A stretch of 64,000 nucleotides of DNA from Erysipelotrichaceae bacterium (GTDB lineage Bacteria > Bacillota_I > Bacilli_A > Erysipelotrichales > Erysipelotrichaceae), in assembly GCA_017442805.1 (NCBI GenBank), contig JAFRZA010000025.1, forward strand, positions 1 through 64,000, written 5' to 3'. The position numbers and the translations under genes are program-made. Below, one piece after another: positions 19,184 through 32,052 of this stretch. The stretch's first letter is position 1. Every line of letters starts with the position of its first letter. Under the pieces are notes generated by a model, which was given only the letters and a program-made list of their open reading frames with translations, did no database searches and was not told the origin of the DNA.

Positions 19184-19573
19184 TCAGTGCTGACTTTCCA
19201 GCATCTCAATGACGCCCGTGATCTTCTTCCAGCTGATCTTCTGCTTTTCCGTTTCCATCTGTTTCCGATAATCTTCATCGTTTTCGTAGAGACGGGAAAG
19301 GACATAGGCGTGATAGTAACGGCCGAAGGCTTCATACTGGGAAGCGTCGACCTTCAGTTCATCCTCGGCGTACCTGTTTGACAGGGTGTAGACATAAACC
19401 TTGTGGTATTCACCGTTGCTGAAGGCTTCGTCCAGTTCGCTGAGACCATAGCTGCGGTTTCCATAACTGACATCCTTGCGGATCTCCACAAACAGCGCCA
19501 GGGCGTTGAAGAACAGCACGATGGCGAAGAATACGATGGCTATCCGGGCCAGTGATTTCCATTTACTTTTCAT
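19184..19573 (-). CDS. Single-pass membrane protein of unknown function
   Basis: 129 residues. One hydrophobic segment at about residues 8-28 (IAIVFFAIVLFFNALALFVE), then a charged, Tyr-rich domain predicted outside or peripheral. I do not recognise a family. The start overlaps the upstream zinc-ribbon gene by 11 bases, so it is the third gene of a three-gene transcript with it and the next zinc-ribbon protein. Confidence 0.7.
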   Translation of the reverse strand: MKSKWKSLARIAIVFFAIVLFFNALALFVEIRKDVSYGNRSYGLSELDEAFSNGEYHKVYVYTLSNRYAEDELKVDASQYEAFGRYYHAYVLSRLYENDEDYRKQMETEKQKISWKKITGVIEMLESQH

Positions 19574-20282
19574 AGCCTAACCTCTCATTCATGAGTATCA
19601 GCAGCGCTGATGAACTCAGATCACTGATTTTGGCGATGTCTTCATCAGTAAAATTCAGATATACCTTAAGCACCCTGTTGACTTCGTCATTGATCTTCTC
19701 AGCATAGCCGGTCATTTCTATGCTGAGTTCTCTGGACTGCGCATATCCGTAGCTTTCCTTGAACTCACCGATGTTCTGACAGAGTCTGACCAGCGGATCT
19801 TCATAGTTACTGGTACCGTAATAATAGTTATTCACGCTTTCCAGGATCCTGCTGTAGCTGTCAGCCAGTGACTCTATCGTCAGATAATCACGGTACTTCG
19901 CGTATGAGAGAATGAACTTGTCGGTAAAGACCTTGAATTCAATGAATTCGCCCTTTTTGAGAAGTTCATCCATTCTGGCGGTTATCTCTTCGTCAGACAT
20001 CCGGGAAGCGATGATCCTTTCGGCAATCTCATAGCTGGCAGAGTGCAGAGGAACCAGGATCAGATTGGCCAGTAACAGGATCGCCAGAATGACCAGCAGC
20101 GAATAGCCGCTTCTGACTTTCCTTACTTCCTCCCTGACTTCGTTTCGGGCGGATGCGTAATCCTTTTCCAGTTTCTTCAGTTTTCTGAGGTGTTCCTGAG
20201 CTTCCGGGTTAGGCGTTCCGCAATGCGGACATACGCTGTCCTTCAAAGTCAGGGGAGCGCCGCAGTTCTTACAGTTGACCAT
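19563..20282 (-). CDS. Zinc-ribbon membrane protein, unknown function
   Basis: 239 residues. An N-terminal zinc ribbon (CKNCG ... CPHCG, residues 4-22), a charged helix, one membrane segment around residues 60-80 (LLVILAILLLANLILVPL) and a C-terminal helical domain. The layout matches its upstream neighbour (zinc ribbon, basic helix, one membrane span, helical domain), suggesting duplicated or partner proteins. Gap of 1 base to that neighbour. Confidence 0.8.
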   Translation of the reverse strand: MVNCKNCGAPLTLKDSVCPHCGTPNPEAQEHLRKLKKLEKDYASARNEVREEVRKVRSGYSLLVILAILLLANLILVPLHSASYEIAERIIASRMSDEEITARMDELLKKGEFIEFKVFTDKFILSYAKYRDYLTIESLADSYSRILESVNNYYYGTSNYEDPLVRLCQNIGEFKESYGYAQSRELSIEMTGYAEKINDEVNRVLKVYLNFTDEDIAKISDLSSSALLILMNERLGYEK

Positions 20283-20283
20283 C

Positions 20284-21006
20284 TTAATCCCCCTCTACAT
20301 ACTTTTCCAGGGCATCGGTATCGATATAACCCTGCTTATCGCTGTTTTGCTGGTAGATCGTCTTCAGCTGATCTTCGCTGAAGCCCTTCTCTTCAAGCAT
20401 TTCCAGGATCTTCTGCCGCTGCTGCTGATACTTCTCCATGTCAGCGCTTTTCATCCGGTCACGTCCGGTGAAATACTCCGGCCAGTACAGGTAGTACAGC
20501 ATCCTCTGCAGCTGATACTTGTTGAAGCGGGTATCGCCGCTTATCTGCTCGAATTCATCAGCCAGCGCATAATCAGGATAGTGGCTCCATTTCATGACGA
20601 CGGTTCCGTTTTCGTAATAGAGCTTCTTTATGGCCTTCAGATCGCCTTCACGGTAGTATTCTTCCAGCTTATCGATGTTGGCTTCATACCACTCGATGTT
20701 CTCCAGCGTCTTCTGGTCATACTCATAGTCATTGTGATAATTCACATTGAATCTAAGCGATATCAGATAAGCCGCCGCAACGATCACCGCCACGATGATC
20801 AGCGAGCGGATCAAAGCTGATACGATCGAGCGGCTGACCGACTGGTGCGCTTCCTGCTTCATTCCCAGCATCCGGTCAATGAATCCGGCGACTTTCTGGC
20901 GGAAGCCCTTATAGGCGCCTTTCTTGTTCATGGTTCCGCAATAGGGACAGTATTCCGTGTCTTCACTGTAGGCTGCCCCGCAGTTTTTGCATATTATTTC
21001 CTTCAT
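20284..21006 (-). CDS. Zinc-ribbon membrane protein, unknown function
   Basis: 240 residues. Zinc ribbon at the N-terminus (CKNCGAAYSEDTEYCPYCG), a basic linker, one membrane segment around residues 65-85 (ALIRSLIIVAVIVAAAYLIS) and a Tyr-rich helical C-terminal part. The ATG at 21006 has GGAG upstream; an in-frame start at 21042 lacks support. It has its own strong promoter, separate from the TPM-protein transcript above it. Confidence 0.8.
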   Translation of the reverse strand: MKEIICKNCGAAYSEDTEYCPYCGTMNKKGAYKGFRQKVAGFIDRMLGMKQEAHQSVSRSIVSALIRSLIIVAVIVAAAYLISLRFNVNYHNDYEYDQKTLENIEWYEANIDKLEEYYREGDLKAIKKLYYENGTVVMKWSHYPDYALADEFEQISGDTRFNKYQLQRMLYYLYWPEYFTGRDRMKSADMEKYQQQRQKILEMLEEKGFSEDQLKTIYQQNSDKQGYIDTDALEKYVEGD

Positions 21007-21057
21007 ATTCTCATTTCTCCGCTGAAAAAGTACCCATGGCATTTTCTAACCTGTTTT

Positions 21058-21115: not shown

Positions 21116-21150
21116 GAAAAAAGACAACCTTCACAGGGAAAGCTGTCTTT
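21116..21150 (-). terminator. Terminator after the TPM-domain gene
   Basis: AAAGACA and TGTCTTT arms with an inner CC/GG pairing, followed by a T run on the minus strand. It separates the two zinc-ribbon transcripts. Confidence 0.7.
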
Positions 21151-21162
21151 CGAAACAATAAA

Positions 21163-22248
21163 CTAGAATCCTCTTCGTCCGCCGCCGCCATGGGTAGCGC
21201 CGGATGATGAGGTGTGGGTCGAAGAACCGCCGGAGAATGATCCGCCGTGTCCTCCGCCGCCTGAAGAGCCTGAACTATGTGTTTCACGCGGCCGGGCCGT
21301 GCGGCTGGTCTTCGAATACATGTAATGATCGTGGTAATTGGTCAGATTGAAACTGCCCCTTTCCACATAGCGGTCGGCCTCGTACTTGCTGTGAACGGAC
21401 CTGTTCTTGGCCTTCATGATGCTGCATCCGATCAGCGCTGCCAGAATGCCGCTGCTGCTGGAAACGGCTCCGCCGGTGAGCAGATCATACGGTGCTCTTT
21501 CGGCTACCATGCTGATGTCGTATTCTTCGGAACCGCGTACGGTCACATCTGCCGGACGATTGTACTTATCGGTAATGTTATCGCACCTGATGACATATAC
21601 CGCGTTGGTATCTTCCGTTCCGATGTCAACATAACCTTCGCCGCGGTCAACATAAATCATGGTTATGTAGTCGCCGTTAGCGTCATAGACAGAGAAATGG
21701 CCGTTCAGGGGATTTCCCTTTTCGTCGTTCAGGTGAATGTAGAGACGGTTATAGTAGAAGTCGATCGGCTTGTCCGTGATAGCCGCATTGATGTACCGGT
21801 CACAGAGTTCGACGTATTTGGCTACAGCCACTTCAATATTGCCTGGCAGGAAAACATACACTTCATCAGCAATCGTTTCCAGACCGTAATCGGTAAAGTA
21901 GTCAATGCACTTTCCTCTGGTACTCAGATACATTTCCCGGCCGTTCATGTCAATGACCATGATTATTCCTGACCTCTCCGCTCCCCGGCCATAGCCGTTG
22001 TAGTCGAAGTAATCATCCGCAAAATCCACGATGTCCTTACCGTCGGTGTCAGCCGCGATGACGGCGATGACATCAACATCGTACTTGTCGCTGACCATCT
22101 GCAGCTGCTGCTGGCATATCTCCAGCCGCTCAGGTGCAAGTTCGCCGGTTTCATCAACGATCAGCGCGGTGTCTGCCGATGTACTGAGAGGCACGCTCAT
22201 CATAAACATCACTGCCAGGATGGTAAATAACTTAATAATTCTCTTCAT
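21163..22248 (-). CDS. TPM-domain secreted/membrane protein, YdjH-like
   Basis: 361 residues. A signal peptide at residues 1-25 (MKRIIKLFTILAVMFMMSVP), then a TPM fold (residues about 27-155) with LIVDETGELAPE, an extracellular stretch, a hydrophobic segment around residues 255-275, and a C-terminal tail of Gly, Ser and His. TPM proteins are membrane-linked and in B. subtilis YdjH works with YdjG and YdjI in placing PspA at the membrane. Here the neighbours are YdjG- and YdjI-like proteins, which supports the same role; no PspA gene is in view. Confidence 0.82.
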   Translation of the reverse strand: MKRIIKLFTILAVMFMMSVPLSTSADTALIVDETGELAPERLEICQQQLQMVSDKYDVDVIAVIAADTDGKDIVDFADDYFDYNGYGRGAERSGIIMVIDMNGREMYLSTRGKCIDYFTDYGLETIADEVYVFLPGNIEVAVAKYVELCDRYINAAITDKPIDFYYNRLYIHLNDEKGNPLNGHFSVYDANGDYITMIYVDRGEGYVDIGTEDTNAVYVIRCDNITDKYNRPADVTVRGSEEYDISMVAERAPYDLLTGGAVSSSSGILAALIGCSIMKAKNRSVHSKYEADRYVERGSFNLTNYHDHYMYSKTSRTARPRETHSSGSSGGGGHGGSFSGGSSTHTSSSGATHGGGGRRGF

Positions 22249-22260
22249 TGTCCTACCCTC

Positions 22261-23349
22261 CTAAAACAGTTTCAGCAGATATGTCGCCGCAAATACCAGT
22301 GCGCTTACCCCGGCCGCAATGATCGCAAAGTAGCGGGCATACAGACTGCCGTCGGTGGGCAGATCGCCGATCATCTTGCCGGTCTGACCGTTCATGGCAA
22401 AATAGTACTTCTTGCCGTTATAAGTCGTTACCAGCAGCCATACCGGCAGCAGGCAGTACTTGGCGTGTTCGCTTAAAAGCCGCATGTGCATGCCGGCTTC
22501 GCGCACGGATGTATAGCCGCTTACCGTTGATTCGATGGAGTTAGCCGTGGTGTTGCGGATGCGCTGGTTGGCCTTCTTGCCGCTTTCATCGGCGGTGATG
22601 TCGAATTTGTCGGCAAAATAGCCGGCCAGATAATTCATGTTGAAGTCAACCGCCTGACGCATGTCAAACGGCTCAATCGATTCCATCATCGCGGTATTCA
22701 TCTTGCTTGAGCCGTTGGCGGGAACATCATCAAAGCTGATGTCGCCATCGCGGAAGACATTGTAATACCGGGTTTCGGTATAGTCGTAATCATGGTCGGA
22801 CCAGCTTCTGGTCCTGGTGGCCACGTATCTGGCCTTGGCATGGACATCGGCGTCATACAGCCAGAAGGGGACGTAGACACCCTTGATCTCCTGCATGTGC
22901 TTTTCGGCCTTGAAGGCGGCCGGTGCCAGCGGCTTGTCCGAGACGTGTTCGCGGTACTTCTGAATGGCCTGCTGCTTGCTGAACTTGAAGGGGATGACCT
23001 TGTCAGGTCTTAAAGACCCCCTGAACTGATCGACCATGACGACGGGATTGCCGCAGTACGGACAGCTGGAAGCCGCAGTGGTTTCATCGGTAATGATGTC
23101 ACCACCGCAGCTCTTGCATACATACTCACGGATATTCTGCTTCTCCTGCTGACTCCATTCGCCATCGGGCTGGGCAGTCCAGCTGAGTTCGTTATTAACC
23201 GTTTCAGCAATATCCTCGTCATACTGCTTGATCATGTCAACGTCAAATTCAGAATGACAGAACGGGCATTTCAGATTCTGTGTAGATGAGTCGAATACCA
23301 GTATCCCACCGCAGTTAGGACATTTGTATTCCTTTAATCCATCACTCAT
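22261..23349 (-). CDS. TFIIB-type zinc-ribbon membrane protein, YdjG-like
   Basis: 362 residues. Two zinc ribbons (CPNCG ... CPFC at residues 10-33; CKSCG ... CPYC near 75-100), a long soluble domain containing PFWLYDADVHAKARY, and a C-terminal membrane segment (residues about 335-358). The family is common in Firmicutes, and YdjG of B. subtilis matches the layout. Spacing of 12 bases to the TPM gene. Confidence 0.82.
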   Translation of the reverse strand: MSDGLKEYKCPNCGGILVFDSSTQNLKCPFCHSEFDVDMIKQYDEDIAETVNNELSWTAQPDGEWSQQEKQNIREYVCKSCGGDIITDETTAASSCPYCGNPVVMVDQFRGSLRPDKVIPFKFSKQQAIQKYREHVSDKPLAPAAFKAEKHMQEIKGVYVPFWLYDADVHAKARYVATRTRSWSDHDYDYTETRYYNVFRDGDISFDDVPANGSSKMNTAMMESIEPFDMRQAVDFNMNYLAGYFADKFDITADESGKKANQRIRNTTANSIESTVSGYTSVREAGMHMRLLSEHAKYCLLPVWLLVTTYNGKKYYFAMNGQTGKMIGDLPTDGSLYARYFAIIAAGVSALVFAATYLLKLF

Positions 23350-23364
23350 TTGTAACCTCCCGTA

Positions 23365-23386
23365 ACAGCTGACAGGCGTCAGCTGT
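23365..23386 (-). repeat. Intercistronic hairpin
   Basis: ACAGCTGAC and GTCAGCTGT form a perfect 9-bp stem with a 4-base loop between the DUF4428 and YdjG-like genes. No T run follows on the minus strand, so it more likely affects mRNA stability or processing than termination. Confidence 0.5.
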
Positions 23387-23394
23387 CAAACTTT

Positions 23395-24237
23395 CTAAAG
23401 CTTGTGTCCGCAGCTGGGACAGAACTTGGTGTCGGCGTCGGTTATCTTGGTTCCGCATTCCGGACAGAATCTGTTGACTTCCGCTACCGGCTTGGGTGCT
23501 CCGCAGGCACGGCAGAACTTGCCGCCTTCGTTCTTGGTTCCGCACTTCATGCAGTACCAGACTTCGACTTCTTCCTTCTTTTCCTCCTCTTCGGTGAATT
23601 CGACGCCGTTCTTGTAGTAGGCAAATTCCTTCCGCGGATCTTCCCAGCCTCTGCTAGTCAGCTTGGTGCAGATCTGATTGGCCATTTCGGCGTATTCCTT
23701 ATAGAGGTCGCTTTCCGGAGAAGTCGGTCTCTTTTCCGTCAGTTCGAAGTTCAGGTCATCGAAGAAGTCATTTCTGACCTGGATGCAGACATTGAACTTG
23801 TACTCGTATTCGTACTTGGGCGGATTGAAGGAGACCTTCTTGCCTTCGCTGTCCTCGTCGTACTGCTCATCAACATCCTCGTCAACCGTGATCTTGACGC
23901 CCAGGACATCGCTGTAGCTGATCATGTCCGGATTGGCGCTGCGGAAGTTGGATGAGGCGGATACCAGGACCTTCTTGAGATTGTCGTCGAAGTAGACCTT
24001 ATATCTCTTGCCGATGATTTCCGTGGGGGCAAAGTTCTTCAGAGCGGACTCATTGGCCTCTCTGTACTGCAGCTGCTGCTTGATGGCAGCTACGGAAGTA
24101 TGTCTTCTGCCGGTAAACCAGGGAGAAAGCTTGGAGGCGCAGTCCTTGCACATGTTGCCGTCATCAAGCTTGCGGTTACCCAGCAGTTTGATTTCCTTAC
24201 CGCAGATGTCGCAGTATTTCTTATCGAATAAACCCAT
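23395..24237 (-). CDS. DUF4428-like protein with C-terminal double zinc ribbon
   Basis: 280 residues. An N-terminal four-Cys unit (CDICG ... CKDC) followed by WFTGRR is the DUF4428 type; a middle domain (residues 60-215) has beta-rich, charged sequence; the C-terminus carries two zinc ribbons (CMKCG ... CRACG; CPECG ... CPSCG). No enzyme motif is seen, so an adaptor role is plausible. It lies 11 bases downstream of the SPFH gene, so they are co-transcribed. Confidence 0.8.
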   Translation of the reverse strand: MGLFDKKYCDICGKEIKLLGNRKLDDGNMCKDCASKLSPWFTGRRHTSVAAIKQQLQYREANESALKNFAPTEIIGKRYKVYFDDNLKKVLVSASSNFRSANPDMISYSDVLGVKITVDEDVDEQYDEDSEGKKVSFNPPKYEYEYKFNVCIQVRNDFFDDLNFELTEKRPTSPESDLYKEYAEMANQICTKLTSRGWEDPRKEFAYYKNGVEFTEEEEKKEEVEVWYCMKCGTKNEGGKFCRACGAPKPVAEVNRFCPECGTKITDADTKFCPSCGHKL

Positions 24238-24248
24238 AGCGTCACCGC

Positions 24249-25334
24249 CTATTCAGGCTTCTTGGTTCCGCAGACTGAGCAGAAGTTACCGTTGCAGCCG
24301 GCACCGCAGTTGGGGCAGTACCACGAATACTGCTGAGTCTGAGCCGGAGCGACACCGGCGTTCAGGCCCGCCTGCTGAGCCATGTTGACACCGTAGTAAG
24401 CCATGGCCGGTCCATTGGGATTCTTGGCAGCGTCCTTCATGGCGGTGATGGTAGCGTCAGTTAAGCCGGCATCCTTGATGTACGGATTGGTGTACATGGC
24501 GGCCTTCTGAGCATCGGTGATGAGTTTCTGATCTTCTTCGGTCAGAGATACGGTTGCCAGAGCGACGTTGACGACCTGAATGCCCCGCAGTTCATTCCAC
24601 TTGGCATCCAGAGCTTCGTTGAGAGCGTTCTCCAGTTCGGTATTGTGAGCGATGATCTCGCTGGGTCTCAGTTCCATCGTTGACAGCTTGGCTAATGCCG
24701 GCTGTAAGGCGGAAACGAATTCGATCCTCAGCGTGTCTTTCAGCTGATCTACGTAGTAAGCCTCAGCGACGTTGCCGCAGACATTGACATAGAACAGGAT
24801 CGGGTCAGTGATCTTGAATGAATAGGTGCCGGCGCATCTGATCTGAATGTCGACATCCAGGTTGATGCGGGAATCAACTACTCTGAACGGTACCGGCGTA
24901 CTGGTGCCGAACTTGTTGTCGAGAATTTCCTTGGTGTTGAAGTAGTATACTCTCTGATCCTTGCCGGCTTCACCACCGTAGGTGAAACGCTTCTTGAAGG
25001 TCTCAAAGCTCTTCAGCAGGCCCTCGCCCAGAGAACCGGCGAAGATTGACGGTTCGGATGAAGAATCGAAGGTGTACAGGCCCGGTTCGGCGCAGACTTC
25101 AACGATCTTGCCATCCTCAACGATGATCATGCACTGACCGTCAGCGACGGCGATTCCGGATCCGCTGGTGATGATGTTGTCATTGCCGCGGTTGCCGGCG
25201 AACAGACCGGAGACTCTCTTGTGTCCCCTTTCAACCAGGACATTGCTGTCCATGGCTTCGCAGTAGAAGTATTCCTTCCACTGATCGGCGATTGTGCTGT
25301 TAAGCGCTTGTAATCCACTACTAATTAAACCCAT
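24249..25334 (-). CDS. SPFH-domain protein, YdjI-like, with C-terminal zinc ribbon
   Basis: 361 residues. The N-terminal two thirds (about 25-270) are an SPFH/virion-core-like domain with GLYTFDSSSEPSIF and RINLDVDIQIRCAGTYSFKI; residues 270-335 are Ala/Gly-rich; a zinc ribbon ends the protein (CPNCG ... CSVCG). Soluble, with no membrane segment, as in YdjI, which binds YdjG/YdjH at the membrane. AAAGGAG precedes the ATG. First structural gene after the HTH-Panacea regulator. Confidence 0.86.
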   Translation of the reverse strand: MGLISSGLQALNSTIADQWKEYFYCEAMDSNVLVERGHKRVSGLFAGNRGNDNIITSGSGIAVADGQCMIIVEDGKIVEVCAEPGLYTFDSSSEPSIFAGSLGEGLLKSFETFKKRFTYGGEAGKDQRVYYFNTKEILDNKFGTSTPVPFRVVDSRINLDVDIQIRCAGTYSFKITDPILFYVNVCGNVAEAYYVDQLKDTLRIEFVSALQPALAKLSTMELRPSEIIAHNTELENALNEALDAKWNELRGIQVVNVALATVSLTEEDQKLITDAQKAAMYTNPYIKDAGLTDATITAMKDAAKNPNGPAMAYYGVNMAQQAGLNAGVAPAQTQQYSWYCPNCGAGCNGNFCSVCGTKKPE

Positions 25335-25394
25335 AAATAACTCCTTTCGTTAATTAATAACTTCTGTATTCTCAAGCCCGCAGGCTTTGATACC

Positions 25395-26321
25395 TTACTG
25401 ATAGATCCGGGAGAAATACTCCCTGATCTCATTTCTTTCGATGCGCTCATCGATCTTCTTATTGGCGCAGGGCGGCTCGCTCTTACAGATGGACACCAGC
25501 AGAAGCAGTTCCAGCTGCCCATAGGACTCAATGACCGTATCGGCAATCTTGTGCAGGCCATTGCTGAGGTAAACCTCATCGTTTTCCTCCAGACGCTCCT
25601 TTCTGCCGTATTCGTGGCTGATCTCGGGAACATACGGGCCCAGTTTGCCCAGGTAGATGTCATTGGTGAAGGCGCTGCGCTGATAGATACACAGTGAGAG
25701 TGCTTCGACGAAGTACAAAAGCAGCTGCAGCTTGGCCGGGGTGATCATCACCGTCTCGACATCAAGCCAGTCATACTGATGGTTGTACTTCTTGATCATG
25801 TAGCGAGCGACGTCCAGAACACTGGTAGCCGTCAGGGTGAGATTGGTGAATTCGCTCATCTCGAAGCGGGCGATACGGTTACGCTGCAGTTTCTGCAGTT
25901 CCCTGACCGTATCCATCAGCCTGACGAAGTTCTCCTCTCTGAAGCAGTCGCGGTTGTTGTTGAGAAGTTTGTACATGTCATTGGCGTCCGCGCTCAGACG
26001 CATGATCTCATCATCGGCGTAGGACTGAATGCTGCCCTTTTCAAAGCGGTGGACGGTGATCTCGCCGAAACCAAGAGCCAGGGCATATTCCTTCTGAGTC
26101 ATCTGATAACGGCTGCGGATGTCCTTGATGTCCTGAGAAGTCAGCAGACCCTTCAGTTTCTTATAGCTTTCAATCATGCTGGCGCGGTTTTCCGCGACGA
26201 ATTCCTTGAGGTAGACCTCTTCATGACTGGCCGGATCAAAAGCATACTTCTCGTCGTACTCAACCAGTTCGTTACGGAACAGCTTGCTGGATTTTCTGAT
26301 TCTGATCTCGTAGTCAGGCAT
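25395..26321 (-). CDS. HTH regulator with C-terminal Panacea (SocA/DUF4065) domain
   Basis: 308 residues. Residues about 62-110 hold a Xre/MqsA-like helix-turn-helix (RYQMTQKEYALALGFGEITV, then HRFEKGS). Residues about 165-250 hold the Panacea pattern: KLQLLLYFVEALSLCIYQRS, then GPYVPEISHEYG. Panacea domains are antitoxins that neutralise diverse toxins, but no toxin gene is adjacent. It is 60 bases upstream of the SPFH gene with no terminator, so it probably heads that operon. The inverted repeats upstream suggest it controls itself. Confidence 0.8.
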   Translation of the reverse strand: MPDYEIRIRKSSKLFRNELVEYDEKYAFDPASHEEVYLKEFVAENRASMIESYKKLKGLLTSQDIKDIRSRYQMTQKEYALALGFGEITVHRFEKGSIQSYADDEIMRLSADANDMYKLLNNNRDCFREENFVRLMDTVRELQKLQRNRIARFEMSEFTNLTLTATSVLDVARYMIKKYNHQYDWLDVETVMITPAKLQLLLYFVEALSLCIYQRSAFTNDIYLGKLGPYVPEISHEYGRKERLEENDEVYLSNGLHKIADTVIESYGQLELLLLVSICKSEPPCANKKIDERIERNEIREYFSRIYQ

Positions 26322-26346: not shown

Positions 26347-26374
26347 ATTATAGTTTCTTAACAAAAATTATCAA
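26347..26374 (-). promoter_or_regulatory. Promoter of the Panacea-SPFH operon
   Basis: -35 TTGATA (26369-26374), 16-base spacer, -10 TATAAT (26347-26352). The -35 lies inside the proximal arm of the large inverted repeat, so a bound protein would block it. Confidence 0.75.
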
Positions 26375-26411
26375 GTGATAGCCGTCTTAAAACTATCAAT
26401 TGATAATTTTT
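26363..26411. promoter_or_regulatory. Paired palindromes, likely operator of the HTH-Panacea regulator
   Basis: Two 19-base arms (26363-26381 and 26393-26411) are inverted repeats of each other with one mismatch, 11 bases apart. Each arm is itself a palindrome: TATCAATTGATA (perfect) and TATCAAGTGATA (one mismatch). That is four half-sites, fitting two dimers. Placement over the -35 implies repression. Inference: the operon's own HTH protein binds here. Confidence 0.65.
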
Positions 26412-28380: not shown

Positions 28381-30156
28381 TTACTTGATCTCGTTGAATC
28401 CTTCTCTGGCTGCATAGGTGGTATGCAGTAATTCATGAGCCTTATGGGAGTTCGGTTCACCCAGGAACTTGTCATACAGTTCAATGATCTGAGGATTGTT
28501 GTGAGACTGACGGATGACCTGACGCTCGTCCTCGGAATACAGAGCCTTGGCTCTCTTTTCCTTATAGGTGTCGATGATGTCCAGATCTTCGTTAGGCATC
28601 AGAGTCGGCTTGATGAACGGCTGGCCGCCGCCATTGATGCAGCCGCCCGGGCAGCCCATGATCTCAATGAACTGATACTTGGACTTGCCTTCGCGGATCT
28701 GATCGAGCAGCACCTTGGCGCTCTTCATGCCGGAAGCGATGGCTACATTGACGACCGTGCCGTTGATGTCGATGGAGGCTTCTCTGATACCGGCATCGTG
28801 ACCCTTGACTTCGTCAAAGGTGATCTTGTCCTTTTCCTTGCCGGTCAGCTTGAAGTAGACGGTACGTAAGGCGGCTTCCATGACGCCACCGGTAACACCG
28901 AAGATGACGCCGGCGCCGGTGTAATCGCCCATGATGTCCTGATCCCAATCTTCATCAGGGAGCTTGTTGAAGACGATACCGGAACGCTTGATCATCTTGG
29001 CCAGTTCTCTGGTGGTGATGACGGCATCGACATCTTCCAGGCCGTTGACCTTGAGCTGCTCTCTCTGTCTCTCAAACTTCTTGGCAATGCAGGGCATGAC
29101 GGATACGACGAAGATGTCCTTCGGATCAATGTCATGCTGCTGAGCCCAGTAGGACTTGATGATGGCGCCCTGCATCTGATGCGGGGACTTGCAGCTGGAA
29201 AGATGCGGCAGCAGATCGGAATAGTTGTATTCAGCGTAGTTGACCCAGCCCGGTGAGCAGGAAGTGATCATCGGCAGCACGCCGCCTTCAGTCAGGCGGT
29301 GCAGCAGCTCGGTGCCTTCTTCCATGATGGTCAGGTCAGCGCCGAAGTTGACGTCGTAGACTCTGTAGAATCCCAGTCTTCTCATGGCGGCGATCATCTT
29401 GCCGGTGACCGGAGTACCGACCTTGTAGCCGAACTCTTCACCTAAGGCAGCTCTGACAGCCGGAGCAGCCTGGATGATGACGTACTTGCCGTCTCTGAAG
29501 GCCTTGTCAACAAGGTCGATCTGAGAATGTTCCATCAGAGCGCCGGTCGGGCAGACGTTGACGCACTGACCGCACTGGATGCACGGTGAATCGGCAAAGC
29601 TTCTGTTTTCCGCCGGGGAGACGAAGGTCTTGAAGCCTCTGTTCTCGAAGCCGAGGATGCCTAAGCCATGGGCATTTGAGCATCTGGCAATGCAGCGGCC
29701 GCACAGGATGCACTTGGAAGTGTCTCTGACCAGAGCCGGAGCAAGCTGGTCAATGTGAGTTTCAGAGCGGACACCGGCGAAGGCGCCTTCTCTGGCACCG
29801 GTCAGCTGAGCGACATGCAGCAGCTCGCAGTGACCGTTTTTCTCACACTGCTGGCAGTTCATTGAGTGATTGGAAAGCAGCAGTTCAACACTTCTTCTTC
29901 TGGCTTCGGTAGCCTTCGGAGTGGAGATTCTGATCTCCATGCCTTCGGAAACCGGATAGACACAGCTGGCAACCAGTCCTCTGGCGCCGGTAGCTTCTAC
30001 CAAGCAGACACGGCAGGAACCCTGATTGCATTCGCCATGATTGAATGTACATAAGGAAGGAATTTCGTAGCCACACTGTCTGGCGGCTTCCAGGATGGTC
30101 AGCGAGCTGTCAACCTGATAGGGAACGCCTTCAATCTTGATATTTACTAATGACAT
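28381..30156 (-). CDS. hydA: [FeFe] hydrogenase catalytic subunit
   Basis: 591 residues. N-terminal [2Fe-2S] domain (C36, C48, C51), a His-Cys [4Fe-4S] stretch (HSMNCQQCEKNGHC), two 4Fe-4S ferredoxin sites (CILCGRCIARC, CIQCGQCVNVC), then the H-cluster motifs TSCSPGW, MPCIAKKFE and IEIMGCPGGCINGG. A C-terminal small-subunit-like tail follows. This is the HndD/HydA layout of multimeric NAD(P)-linked bifurcating hydrogenases: H2 formation or uptake using reduced ferredoxin and NADH together. Third gene of hydC-hydB-hydA. Confidence 0.95.
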   Translation of the reverse strand: MSLVNIKIEGVPYQVDSSLTILEAARQCGYEIPSLCTFNHGECNQGSCRVCLVEATGARGLVASCVYPVSEGMEIRISTPKATEARRRSVELLLSNHSMNCQQCEKNGHCELLHVAQLTGAREGAFAGVRSETHIDQLAPALVRDTSKCILCGRCIARCSNAHGLGILGFENRGFKTFVSPAENRSFADSPCIQCGQCVNVCPTGALMEHSQIDLVDKAFRDGKYVIIQAAPAVRAALGEEFGYKVGTPVTGKMIAAMRRLGFYRVYDVNFGADLTIMEEGTELLHRLTEGGVLPMITSCSPGWVNYAEYNYSDLLPHLSSCKSPHQMQGAIIKSYWAQQHDIDPKDIFVVSVMPCIAKKFERQREQLKVNGLEDVDAVITTRELAKMIKRSGIVFNKLPDEDWDQDIMGDYTGAGVIFGVTGGVMEAALRTVYFKLTGKEKDKITFDEVKGHDAGIREASIDINGTVVNVAIASGMKSAKVLLDQIREGKSKYQFIEIMGCPGGCINGGGQPFIKPTLMPNEDLDIIDTYKEKRAKALYSEDERQVIRQSHNNPQIIELYDKFLGEPNSHKAHELLHTTYAAREGFNEIK

Positions 30157-30168
30157 TTCGATACCCTC

Positions 30169-32052
30169 CTATCTCTTTGAAATAGCGCCGAACTTACATG
30201 ATGAGATACAGGTTCCGCACTTTACGCACTGGCTGGGGTCAATCTTCATGGAAGCGAGCTTATGACCCGGAGCCGTGTAATCGGTTCTGGTAATGCAGTT
30301 AGCCGGGCAGTTGCGCTGGCACATGCCGCAGCCGATGCACTTTTCGGGATCGATGTAGTATTCCATCAGGTTCTTGCAGACGTGAGCCGGGCACTTCTTA
30401 TCAACGATGTGAGCAATGTACTCATCCTTGAAGTGAGTCATTGTGGAAGTGATCGGGTTGGATGAAGTCTGACCTAAGGCACACAGTGAGTTGGCCTTGA
30501 CGGTCTGGCTCAGTTCTTCGAGTTCGTCGAAGTCCTTCATGGTGCCCTTGCCTTCGGTAATGCGGGTCAGGATCTCCAGCATTCTCTTGGTGCCGATACG
30601 GCACGGCGTGCACTTGCCGCAGGATTCATCGCAGATGAATTCCATGTAGAACTTGGCAACGTCAACCATGCAGTTGTCTTCGTCCATGACGATGGCACCG
30701 CCGGAACCCATCATGGAGCCCTTGGCTACCAGGTTATCGAAGTCGATCGGTTCATCGAGGTATTCCTCAGTCAGACAGCCGCCTGACGGACCGCCGGTCT
30801 GAATGGCCTTGAATTTCTTGCCATTGGGGATGCCGCCGCCGATATCGTAGATCAGTTCTCTTAAGGTCGTGCCCATCGGTACTTCAACCAGACCGACGTT
30901 GTTGACCTTACCGCCTAAGGCGAAGACCTTGGTGCCCTTGGACTTCTCAGTGCCTACTGACGCGAAGGCATCAGCGCCGTTTCTTAAGATGTAAGGAACA
31001 CAGGCCAGAGTTTCAACGTTGTTAACGCAGGTCGGCTTGCCCCATAAGCCCTTGACTGCCGGGAATGGAGGTCTCGGTCTGGGCATGCCGCGCTTGCCTT
31101 CGATGGAGTTCAGCAGAGCTGTTTCTTCACCGCAGACGAAGGCGCCGGCGCCTAAACGGATATGGCAACGGAAACTGAAGTCAGTTCCCAGAATGTGGTC
31201 GCCTAACAGACCAACTTCAGTTGCCTGCTTGATGGCAATTTTCAGACGCTTTACAGCGATCGGATACTCAGCACGTACATAGAAATAGCCTTCGGTAGCG
31301 CCGAACGCATAGCCGGCAATGACCATGCCTTCGATGACGGCCAGCGGGTTGCCTTCCAGAATGGAACGGTCCATGAATGCGCCCGGGTCGCCCTCGTCAC
31401 CATTACATACAACGTATTTCTGATCAGCATCGACATTTAAGGCAAACTGCCACTTGCGGCCGGTCGGGAATCCGCCGCCGCCGCGTCCGCGTAAACCGCT
31501 CTTTGATACTTCATCGACGACTTCCTGCGGAGTCATGGTCAGAGCCTTCTTGAGGCCTTCAAAGCCGCCCATGCCTAAGGCTTCGTTGATGTCTTCAGGA
31601 TTGATGACACCGCAGCCGTGCAGGGCAATACGTCTCTGCTTCTTATAGAAGTTGATTTCATCCTGTTTTGAGACCTTGGCCTTGGTAACAGGATCAACGT
31701 ATAACAGTCTTTCAACGACCGTGTTGTTGATGATGTCGCTTTCGACGATCTCTTCAACATCTTCGATCTTAACCATTCTGTATAAGGTATCTTCGGGGTA
31801 GATCTTGACGAACGGTCCCTGTGAGCAGAAACCGAAACAGCCTACCTGATTGACAGTGGCTCTGTCTTCGACACCCTTTTCCTTTAATACTTCTTCGAAT
31901 CTGGCCTTGATCTCATCGGAATGGCTGGACAGACAGCCGGTACCGCCGCATAAGACGATGTGACGCTTGCCGTCCGTGCCATTGATCTTGGTTTCGAGAT
32001 TAGCAGTACAGAGAGCCTGCTGGGCGTTTAATTCTTCTACAGTTCTAATCAT
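30169..32052 (-). CDS. hydB: Hydrogenase NADH/FMN subunit, NuoF-like
   Basis: 627 residues. An N-terminal thioredoxin-like [2Fe-2S] domain (CGGTGC ... CFGFC), the NuoF core with the FMN/NADH loop GRGGGGFPTGRKW near residue 190, the cluster motif ESCGKCTPCRIG, and two C-terminal 4Fe-4S sites (CIGCGMCQRNC, CVKCGTCISSC). It takes NADH or ferredoxin electrons to the hydrogenase subunit. The start overlaps the end of hydC by 4 bases (ATGA). Confidence 0.94.
   Translation of the reverse strand: MIRTVEELNAQQALCTANLETKINGTDGKRHIVLCGGTGCLSSHSDEIKARFEEVLKEKGVEDRATVNQVGCFGFCSQGPFVKIYPEDTLYRMVKIEDVEEIVESDIINNTVVERLLYVDPVTKAKVSKQDEINFYKKQRRIALHGCGVINPEDINEALGMGGFEGLKKALTMTPQEVVDEVSKSGLRGRGGGGFPTGRKWQFALNVDADQKYVVCNGDEGDPGAFMDRSILEGNPLAVIEGMVIAGYAFGATEGYFYVRAEYPIAVKRLKIAIKQATEVGLLGDHILGTDFSFRCHIRLGAGAFVCGEETALLNSIEGKRGMPRPRPPFPAVKGLWGKPTCVNNVETLACVPYILRNGADAFASVGTEKSKGTKVFALGGKVNNVGLVEVPMGTTLRELIYDIGGGIPNGKKFKAIQTGGPSGGCLTEEYLDEPIDFDNLVAKGSMMGSGGAIVMDEDNCMVDVAKFYMEFICDESCGKCTPCRIGTKRMLEILTRITEGKGTMKDFDELEELSQTVKANSLCALGQTSSNPITSTMTHFKDEYIAHIVDKKCPAHVCKNLMEYYIDPEKCIGCGMCQRNCPANCITRTDYTAPGHKLASMKIDPSQCVKCGTCISSCKFGAISKR

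Follow-up and report, generated by a model that had tools for sequence, protein, structure and literature searches.

A probable antitoxin-derived regulator heads a PspA-free SPFH–DUF4428–YdjG–TPM operon in Erysipelotrichaceae

Results

Organisation of the operon

We analysed a 64,000-nucleotide stretch of an Erysipelotrichaceae bacterium genome (assembly GCA_017442805.1, contig JAFRZA010000025.1), which we refer to as the window. Five minus-strand open reading frames (ORFs) lie head to tail between positions 26321 and 21163 (ORF coordinates). The intergenic gaps, 5' to 3' along the operon, are 60, 11, 45 and 12 nt. The head gene (25395..26321, minus strand) encodes an HTH-Panacea protein, hereafter PANA. 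Briefly, PANA consists of an MqsA-type N-terminal beta domain without cysteines, an MqsA/HigA-type HTH and a degenerate Panacea domain; it is the predicted repressor of the operon. No promoter-like site was found in the gap between this gene and the next, which encodes a YdjI-like SPFH protein (24249..25334, minus strand). The SPFH protein was recognised by the Pfam Band_7_1 model (65 bits), and for this family no solved structure was matched by sequence. It ends in a zinc ribbon whose cysteines (C340, C343, C352 and C355) are common to PspA-linked homologues.

The third gene (23395..24237, minus strand) encodes a DUF4428 protein and putative adaptor. It has an N-terminal 4-Cys zinc finger, a PH-like core (about residues 63–200) and a C-terminal double zinc ribbon; Pfam identifies both DUF4428 and the double ribbon. 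Twelve zinc-type cysteines, in three groups, are invariant. The structure model has a pLDDT of 77 overall. Its modelled core matches PH-like folds at Z 5–6, and Foldseek returned no match below 0.001. The PH-like matches are suggestive only, and would fit an adaptor that binds membranes or proteins. A second DUF4428-type protein (182 aa) is encoded elsewhere in the same genome (L101:7090-7638, contig 12), away from any SPFH gene.

The fourth gene (22261..23349, minus strand) encodes a YdjG-like protein with two 4-Cys zinc ribbons, TFIIB-type according to Pfam, followed by a globular domain and one C-terminal transmembrane (TM) helix (residues 335–362). Over the zinc-ribbon region this protein also weakly matches the PADLOC candidate-defence model PDC-S64 (1e-5). 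A hairpin with an 11 bp stem and no U-run separates the DUF4428 and YdjG genes (23363..23388, minus strand) and is a possible mRNA stabiliser or partial attenuator. The last gene (21163..22248, minus strand) encodes a YdjH-like TPM-domain protein (PF04536, 68 bits, above cut-off). It has a hydrophobic, signal-like N-terminal segment and a Gly/Ser-rich tail. These results confirm the YdjI/YdjG/YdjH-type set, with SPFH, DUF4428, YdjG-like and TPM genes consecutive, that was proposed in the initial annotation.

A strong rho-independent terminator (21119..21151, minus strand; -16.2 kcal/mol, z -3.4) follows the TPM gene. Hence, three small minus-strand ORFs beyond it (19184–21042) form a separate unit. 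Two of these encode a zinc ribbon and a TM helix, one with a weak match to TcaA. They have a promoter-like site of their own (21086–21058) and have no counterpart at the syntenic position in the nearest named relative (L107). We rejected them as parts of the operon. Upstream of the operon, at 28381–32052 (minus strand), are two large iron-sulfur proteins that resemble subunits of an NADH-linked [FeFe] hydrogenase when judged by eye only.

Zinc ribbons are numerous in the operon, and the initial annotation took this to suggest a zinc-dependent assembly. Such an assembly was not established. The eight zinc cysteines of YdjG are invariant among 13 sequences, PspA-linked ones included, and those of SPFH are nearly so. 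Since the cysteines are kept even in PspA-linked homologues, the ribbons look like ordinary structural parts. We also rejected zinc sensing by PANA: the region corresponding to the MqsA-type zinc domain lacks any cysteine.

Relatives of the head gene

PANA matches the Pfam models for MqsA-like HTH and SocA_Panacea, the latter at 24.0 bits, just under the cut-off of 25.7. It also matches TIGR03830, the MqsA-type HTH (2e-15, 56.7 bits; cut-off 61.8). We collected 30 close relatives from a scan of named species genomes. In 21 of these loci an MqsR-type ORF lies directly upstream of PANA (gap -16 to 109 nt); what lies downstream differs from locus to locus. Outside the genus, the short ORF directly upstream of close PANA relatives matches MqsR in Pfam, above cut-off at L094 and weakly at L093, L095 and L105. 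One of these loci (L105:5481-6826) has consecutive genes for MqsR, a short HTH protein resembling PanA and a SecB-like chaperone, an arrangement like that of a toxin-antitoxin-chaperone module.

The second class of loci has no MqsR. Here, as in the window, PANA heads an SPFH operon (6/30: L107, L109, L112, L114, L116 and L130; L112 is on the same contig as genome G073 and L116 on the same contig as G026). Three loci were unclassed, with no MqsR ORF called (L117), a contig edge (L121) or a fragmentary gene (L135). In the headed operons of relatives the order is PANA, often a 5'-nucleotidase, SPFH, DUF4428, sometimes a lipoprotein, YdjG, TPM and often DUF6935. The five-family order of the window is thus kept in six other genomes, some with one to three extra genes. 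Its recurrence is far above chance, and coincidence is not supported. The DUF4428 protein and Panacea regulator, flagged at the outset as unfamiliar additions to the described system, are real and conserved in these operons. The nearest named relative is an Erysipelotrichaceae metagenome-assembled genome (MAG; L107), with 95% identity in SPFH and 83% in PANA.

The nucleotidase or metallophosphatase between PANA and SPFH in relatives (L032:6779-8266, L130, L109 and L114) has no obvious signal peptide, and is not present in the window's operon. The DUF6935 protein follows TPM in nucleotidase-bearing, PANA-headed operons (L032:12762-13244 and equivalents). At one locus (L042:3488-7920) the nucleotidase is present in three tandem copies before SPFH. 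That locus continues with DUF4428, YdjG and TPM but has no PANA. Hence, DUF4428 need not have arrived with PANA.

Identity between the window's PANA and the toxin-antitoxin (TA) class is 61% in the HTH, 30% in the N-terminal domain and 35% in the Panacea domain. The recognition helix has been kept, but the Panacea signature is eroded. The motif AWxYGPV has become xGPY (GPY in the window, versus GPV or GPI), and THEExPW is lost in all seven headed-operon PANAs. Consistent with this, Panacea Pfam scores were 18–25 bits, below cut-off, in the headed operons tested versus 53–77 in the TA proteins. Kurata 2022 describes GPV as critical for neutralisation (PMC8832971). For the B. fungorum MqsR:PanA pair, neutralisation of MqsR was traced to the zinc-binding domain, and a sensor role was proposed for Panacea (Ernits 2023, PMC10440598). 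Close TA relatives lack the cysteines of the N-terminal zinc domain as well, and the exapted clade is thus not alone in having lost them. An AlphaFold2 model of PANA (mean pLDDT 91) has MqsA (3gn5) as its top PDB match, with HigA/MqsA HTH domains at Z 7–10. For the Panacea part no clear match emerged in the PDB, since the score of a DarTG chain (7yk3_B, Z 7.7) was within chance range.

Loss of the toxin

We built an MqsR profile from 10 MqsR sequences and ran it alongside positive controls. It gave no match in six relatives, and scored 1e-41 and 1e-53 in two TA-bearing control genomes. No MqsR-like frame or remnant was found in the window, or upstream of PANA at any headed locus. Elsewhere in the window's genome there is one marginal, unlinked MqsR-like domain (E 0.0026) in the C-terminal half of a 242-aa ORF (L210:1765-2493, contig 27). 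We did not count this ORF as linked to PANA; it is on another contig, has unrelated neighbours and no adjoining Panacea antitoxin.

In a phylogenetic tree the seven operon-linked PANAs form one clade (100/100 support) with a long stem (1.05), nested among MqsR-paired proteins. The outgroups were more distant PanA proteins, including one from L095, where an MqsR match precedes the gene, and some branches of the tree are long. SPFH proteins of the headed operons also form one clade (SH-aLRT 95), and their main groups are in an order matching the PANA tree. Hence, the simplest reading of the two trees is that PANA was recruited once and then inherited jointly with the operon. We conclude from these comparisons that an MqsR:PanA antitoxin without its toxin heads the operon and retains the TA operator described below, a relationship not visible from the single sequence.

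Operators and promoter

The sequence upstream of PANA is 27% G+C, versus 52% for the window. It contains two candidate operators, both read on the minus strand, that resemble TTATCAATTGATAA, a perfect 14-bp palindrome. At TA loci the palindrome precedes mqsR, and at headed operons it precedes PANA. The distal copy in the window (26393..26406, TTATCAATTGATAG) has one mismatch to it. The proximal copy (26368..26381, CTATCACTTGATAA) has two mismatches, is 25 bp from the distal one and contains the -35 hexamer of a sigma-70-type promoter (TTGATA-16-TATAAT; 26347..26374, minus strand; 11/12 consensus matches). By chance, 0.20 matches would be expected in the whole window, against the two found at 26393 and 26368.

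With at most one mismatch, TTATCAATTGATAA occurs near PANA in the window and at 28 of the 30 loci; only the contig-edge locus and the fragmentary gene lack it. Away from PANA there was one stray site, at the same threshold, in 389 kb. The distal operator is the only such site in the window's genome. Hence, PANA appears to be a local regulator. In the nearest relative's genome (G514) a second perfect TTATCAATTGATAA lies at L206:1501-1514, about 190 bp upstream of a gene for a 203-aa membrane protein, and is possibly a second target or a chance match.

When two mismatches are allowed, TA operons carry a single copy of the palindrome; L131 is the exception, with two copies spaced by 39 bp. In each of the seven headed operons there are two copies, 25–26 bp apart. 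In the operon class, and at nearly all TA loci, the -35 element TTGATA falls inside the proximal palindrome, with a -10-like hexamer 16–18 nt away. Because a near-consensus promoter is overlapped at its -35 element, we infer that repression is favoured over activation. An HTH protein that overlaps a promoter could, in principle, be an activator. We consider it very likely that PANA represses its own operon.

PspA and the SPFH–YdjG–TPM triad

We examined 35 SPFH loci for the triad of SPFH, YdjG and TPM genes. The triad was present at 20, nearly all without PANA. PANA is therefore dispensable for the scaffold. This bears on the possibility of a toxin-antitoxin or abortive-infection module, with an SPFH/DUF4428/YdjG/TPM effector neutralised by the Panacea protein. 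In its favour, the Panacea domain is known as a hyperpromiscuous antitoxin (PMC8832971, PMC10440598), the head gene descends from an antitoxin and the operon is patchily distributed. However, partners that so often occur without PANA need no antidote. Furthermore, the Panacea signature has decayed in just these operons, defence models give no strong match and the arrangement was inherited across deep divergence. We consider such a module improbable.

The initial annotation saw no PspA gene in view. This holds genome-wide: the PspA model PF04012 had no match in the window's whole 1.82-Mb genome (94% complete), and none in six further headed-operon genome handles, two of which coincide with contigs of G026 and G073. 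Control genomes were positive. Among 95 family genomes, mostly draft MAGs like the others compared here, 35 have relatives of the window's SPFH and five have PspA above cut-off. The two sets overlap in two genomes (G003 and G039). In these, SPFH is divergent (35–36% identity), on a contig apart from PspA and without YdjG or TPM neighbours. Across 295 genomes of the phylum, Band_7_1 was found in 63 and PspA exceeded its cut-off in five. Given PspA-poor genomes and the frequency of the triad, Ydj-type modules of this family as a rule do without PspA.

In two genomes (G117 and G140; loci L175 and L176) pspA, ydjG and an SPFH gene lie in a row, and these served as our reference. The window's YdjG has 28% identity to the reference over 338 aa (E 6e-56) and its SPFH 24% (E 3e-13), with PspA-linked SPFH proteins in general at 23–25%. 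Such homology, 28% for YdjG and 24% for SPFH, could mean that a Psp system is present in disguise, the triad serving a PspA/ESCRT-III-like protein that is encoded elsewhere or too divergent to detect. The published function of Ydj proteins, recruitment of PspA (PMC8581546), fits this reading. It is opposed by the PF04012 searches, negative in the window's genome, G026, G073 and the headed-operon genomes reached through loci, and by the near separation of SPFH and PspA across the family. We regard a hidden Psp system as a little less probable still than a defence module, and a PspA-free scaffold as likely.

Least probable by some way is that PANA works in the manner of SocA, handing an operon product to ClpXP as a proteolytic adaptor, and that its autoregulation is a side function: SocA, as quoted in PMC8832971, carries a Panacea domain and is a ClpXP adaptor, but no sequence feature points to ClpXP delivery here, neither ClpXP nor Lon is needed by other PanAs (PMC8832971) and the doubled operator would be left unexplained.

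Discussion

Our preferred interpretation, which the comparisons make probable, is that an antitoxin has been co-opted as a dedicated repressor that acts locally on a PspA-free membrane-scaffold operon of the Ydj type. On the sequence evidence, the head protein descends from an MqsR:PanA pair that lost its toxin and kept the ancestral HTH and operator. PANA dimers would occupy both palindromes and, with the proximal one holding the -35 hexamer, block RNA polymerase. The Panacea domain may respond to an envelope signal or to a product of the operon, distinguishing free from assembled scaffold, and so lift repression. When scaffold is needed, PANA would be removed, or its Panacea domain bound by the signal or operon product, and SPFH, DUF4428, YdjG and TPM proteins would be made. 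YdjG and TPM may anchor SPFH oligomers at the membrane, by analogy with B. subtilis (PMC8581546). In that organism, membrane fluidity falls when YdjI is lost, and cell-wall synthesis is mislocalised when YdjG/H are lost (PMC8581546).

Any particular inducing signal can be named only tentatively. One speculative version, which we consider rather doubtful, is that Panacea directly reads assembly of the PspA-free SPFH scaffold by binding SPFH or the PH-like DUF4428 adaptor, in place of the TA pair to which its ancestor responded. TA autoregulation would then have become a feedback loop matching scaffold supply to demand.

The locus offers an unusually clean case of antitoxin domestication: sister loci still bear the toxin, the DNA target is shared with them, the operator is doubled and a single regulated operon can be identified. 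The Panacea domain has been kept, in altered form, without a toxin. Hence, the sensor idea is testable by itself. Across the family the Ydj membrane module mostly occurs without PspA, and a PspA-independent role is open to study. Exaptation of antitoxins as transcription factors is an accepted idea (PMC8987985). Our literature search, in which subscription journals were thinly covered, found no report of an SPFH/Ydj operon under a Panacea or MqsA-type regulator, or of DUF4428 in such a role.

Three known systems invite comparison. The pspA-ydjGHI operon of Bacillus subtilis (PMC8581546; Popp 2022, PMC9239133; Ravi 2024, PMC11237479) shares with the window an adjacent SPFH protein with a zinc ribbon, a YdjG with two ribbons and a TM helix, and a TPM membrane protein. 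It differs in that the window's genome has no PspA, the gene order is changed and a DUF4428 adaptor is added. Furthermore, pspA-ydjGHI belongs to the SigW regulon, whereas an HTH-Panacea regulator heads the operon described here. MqsR:PanA TA systems (Ernits 2023, PMC10440598; Kurata 2022, PMC8832971) have the same MqsA-type N-terminal domain, HTH and Panacea domain, and those of close relatives share, by sequence, the same 14-bp promoter operator. Unlike them, the window has no MqsR, two operators where TA loci usually have one, a degraded Panacea signature and membrane scaffold genes downstream. Finally, as in other cases where antitoxins became transcription factors (see the review PMC8987985), the antitoxin would have left its TA operon for a dedicated regulatory role. 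In contrast to those examples, the intermediates are visible here, as sister TA loci, a retained operator, operator doubling and a regulated operon.
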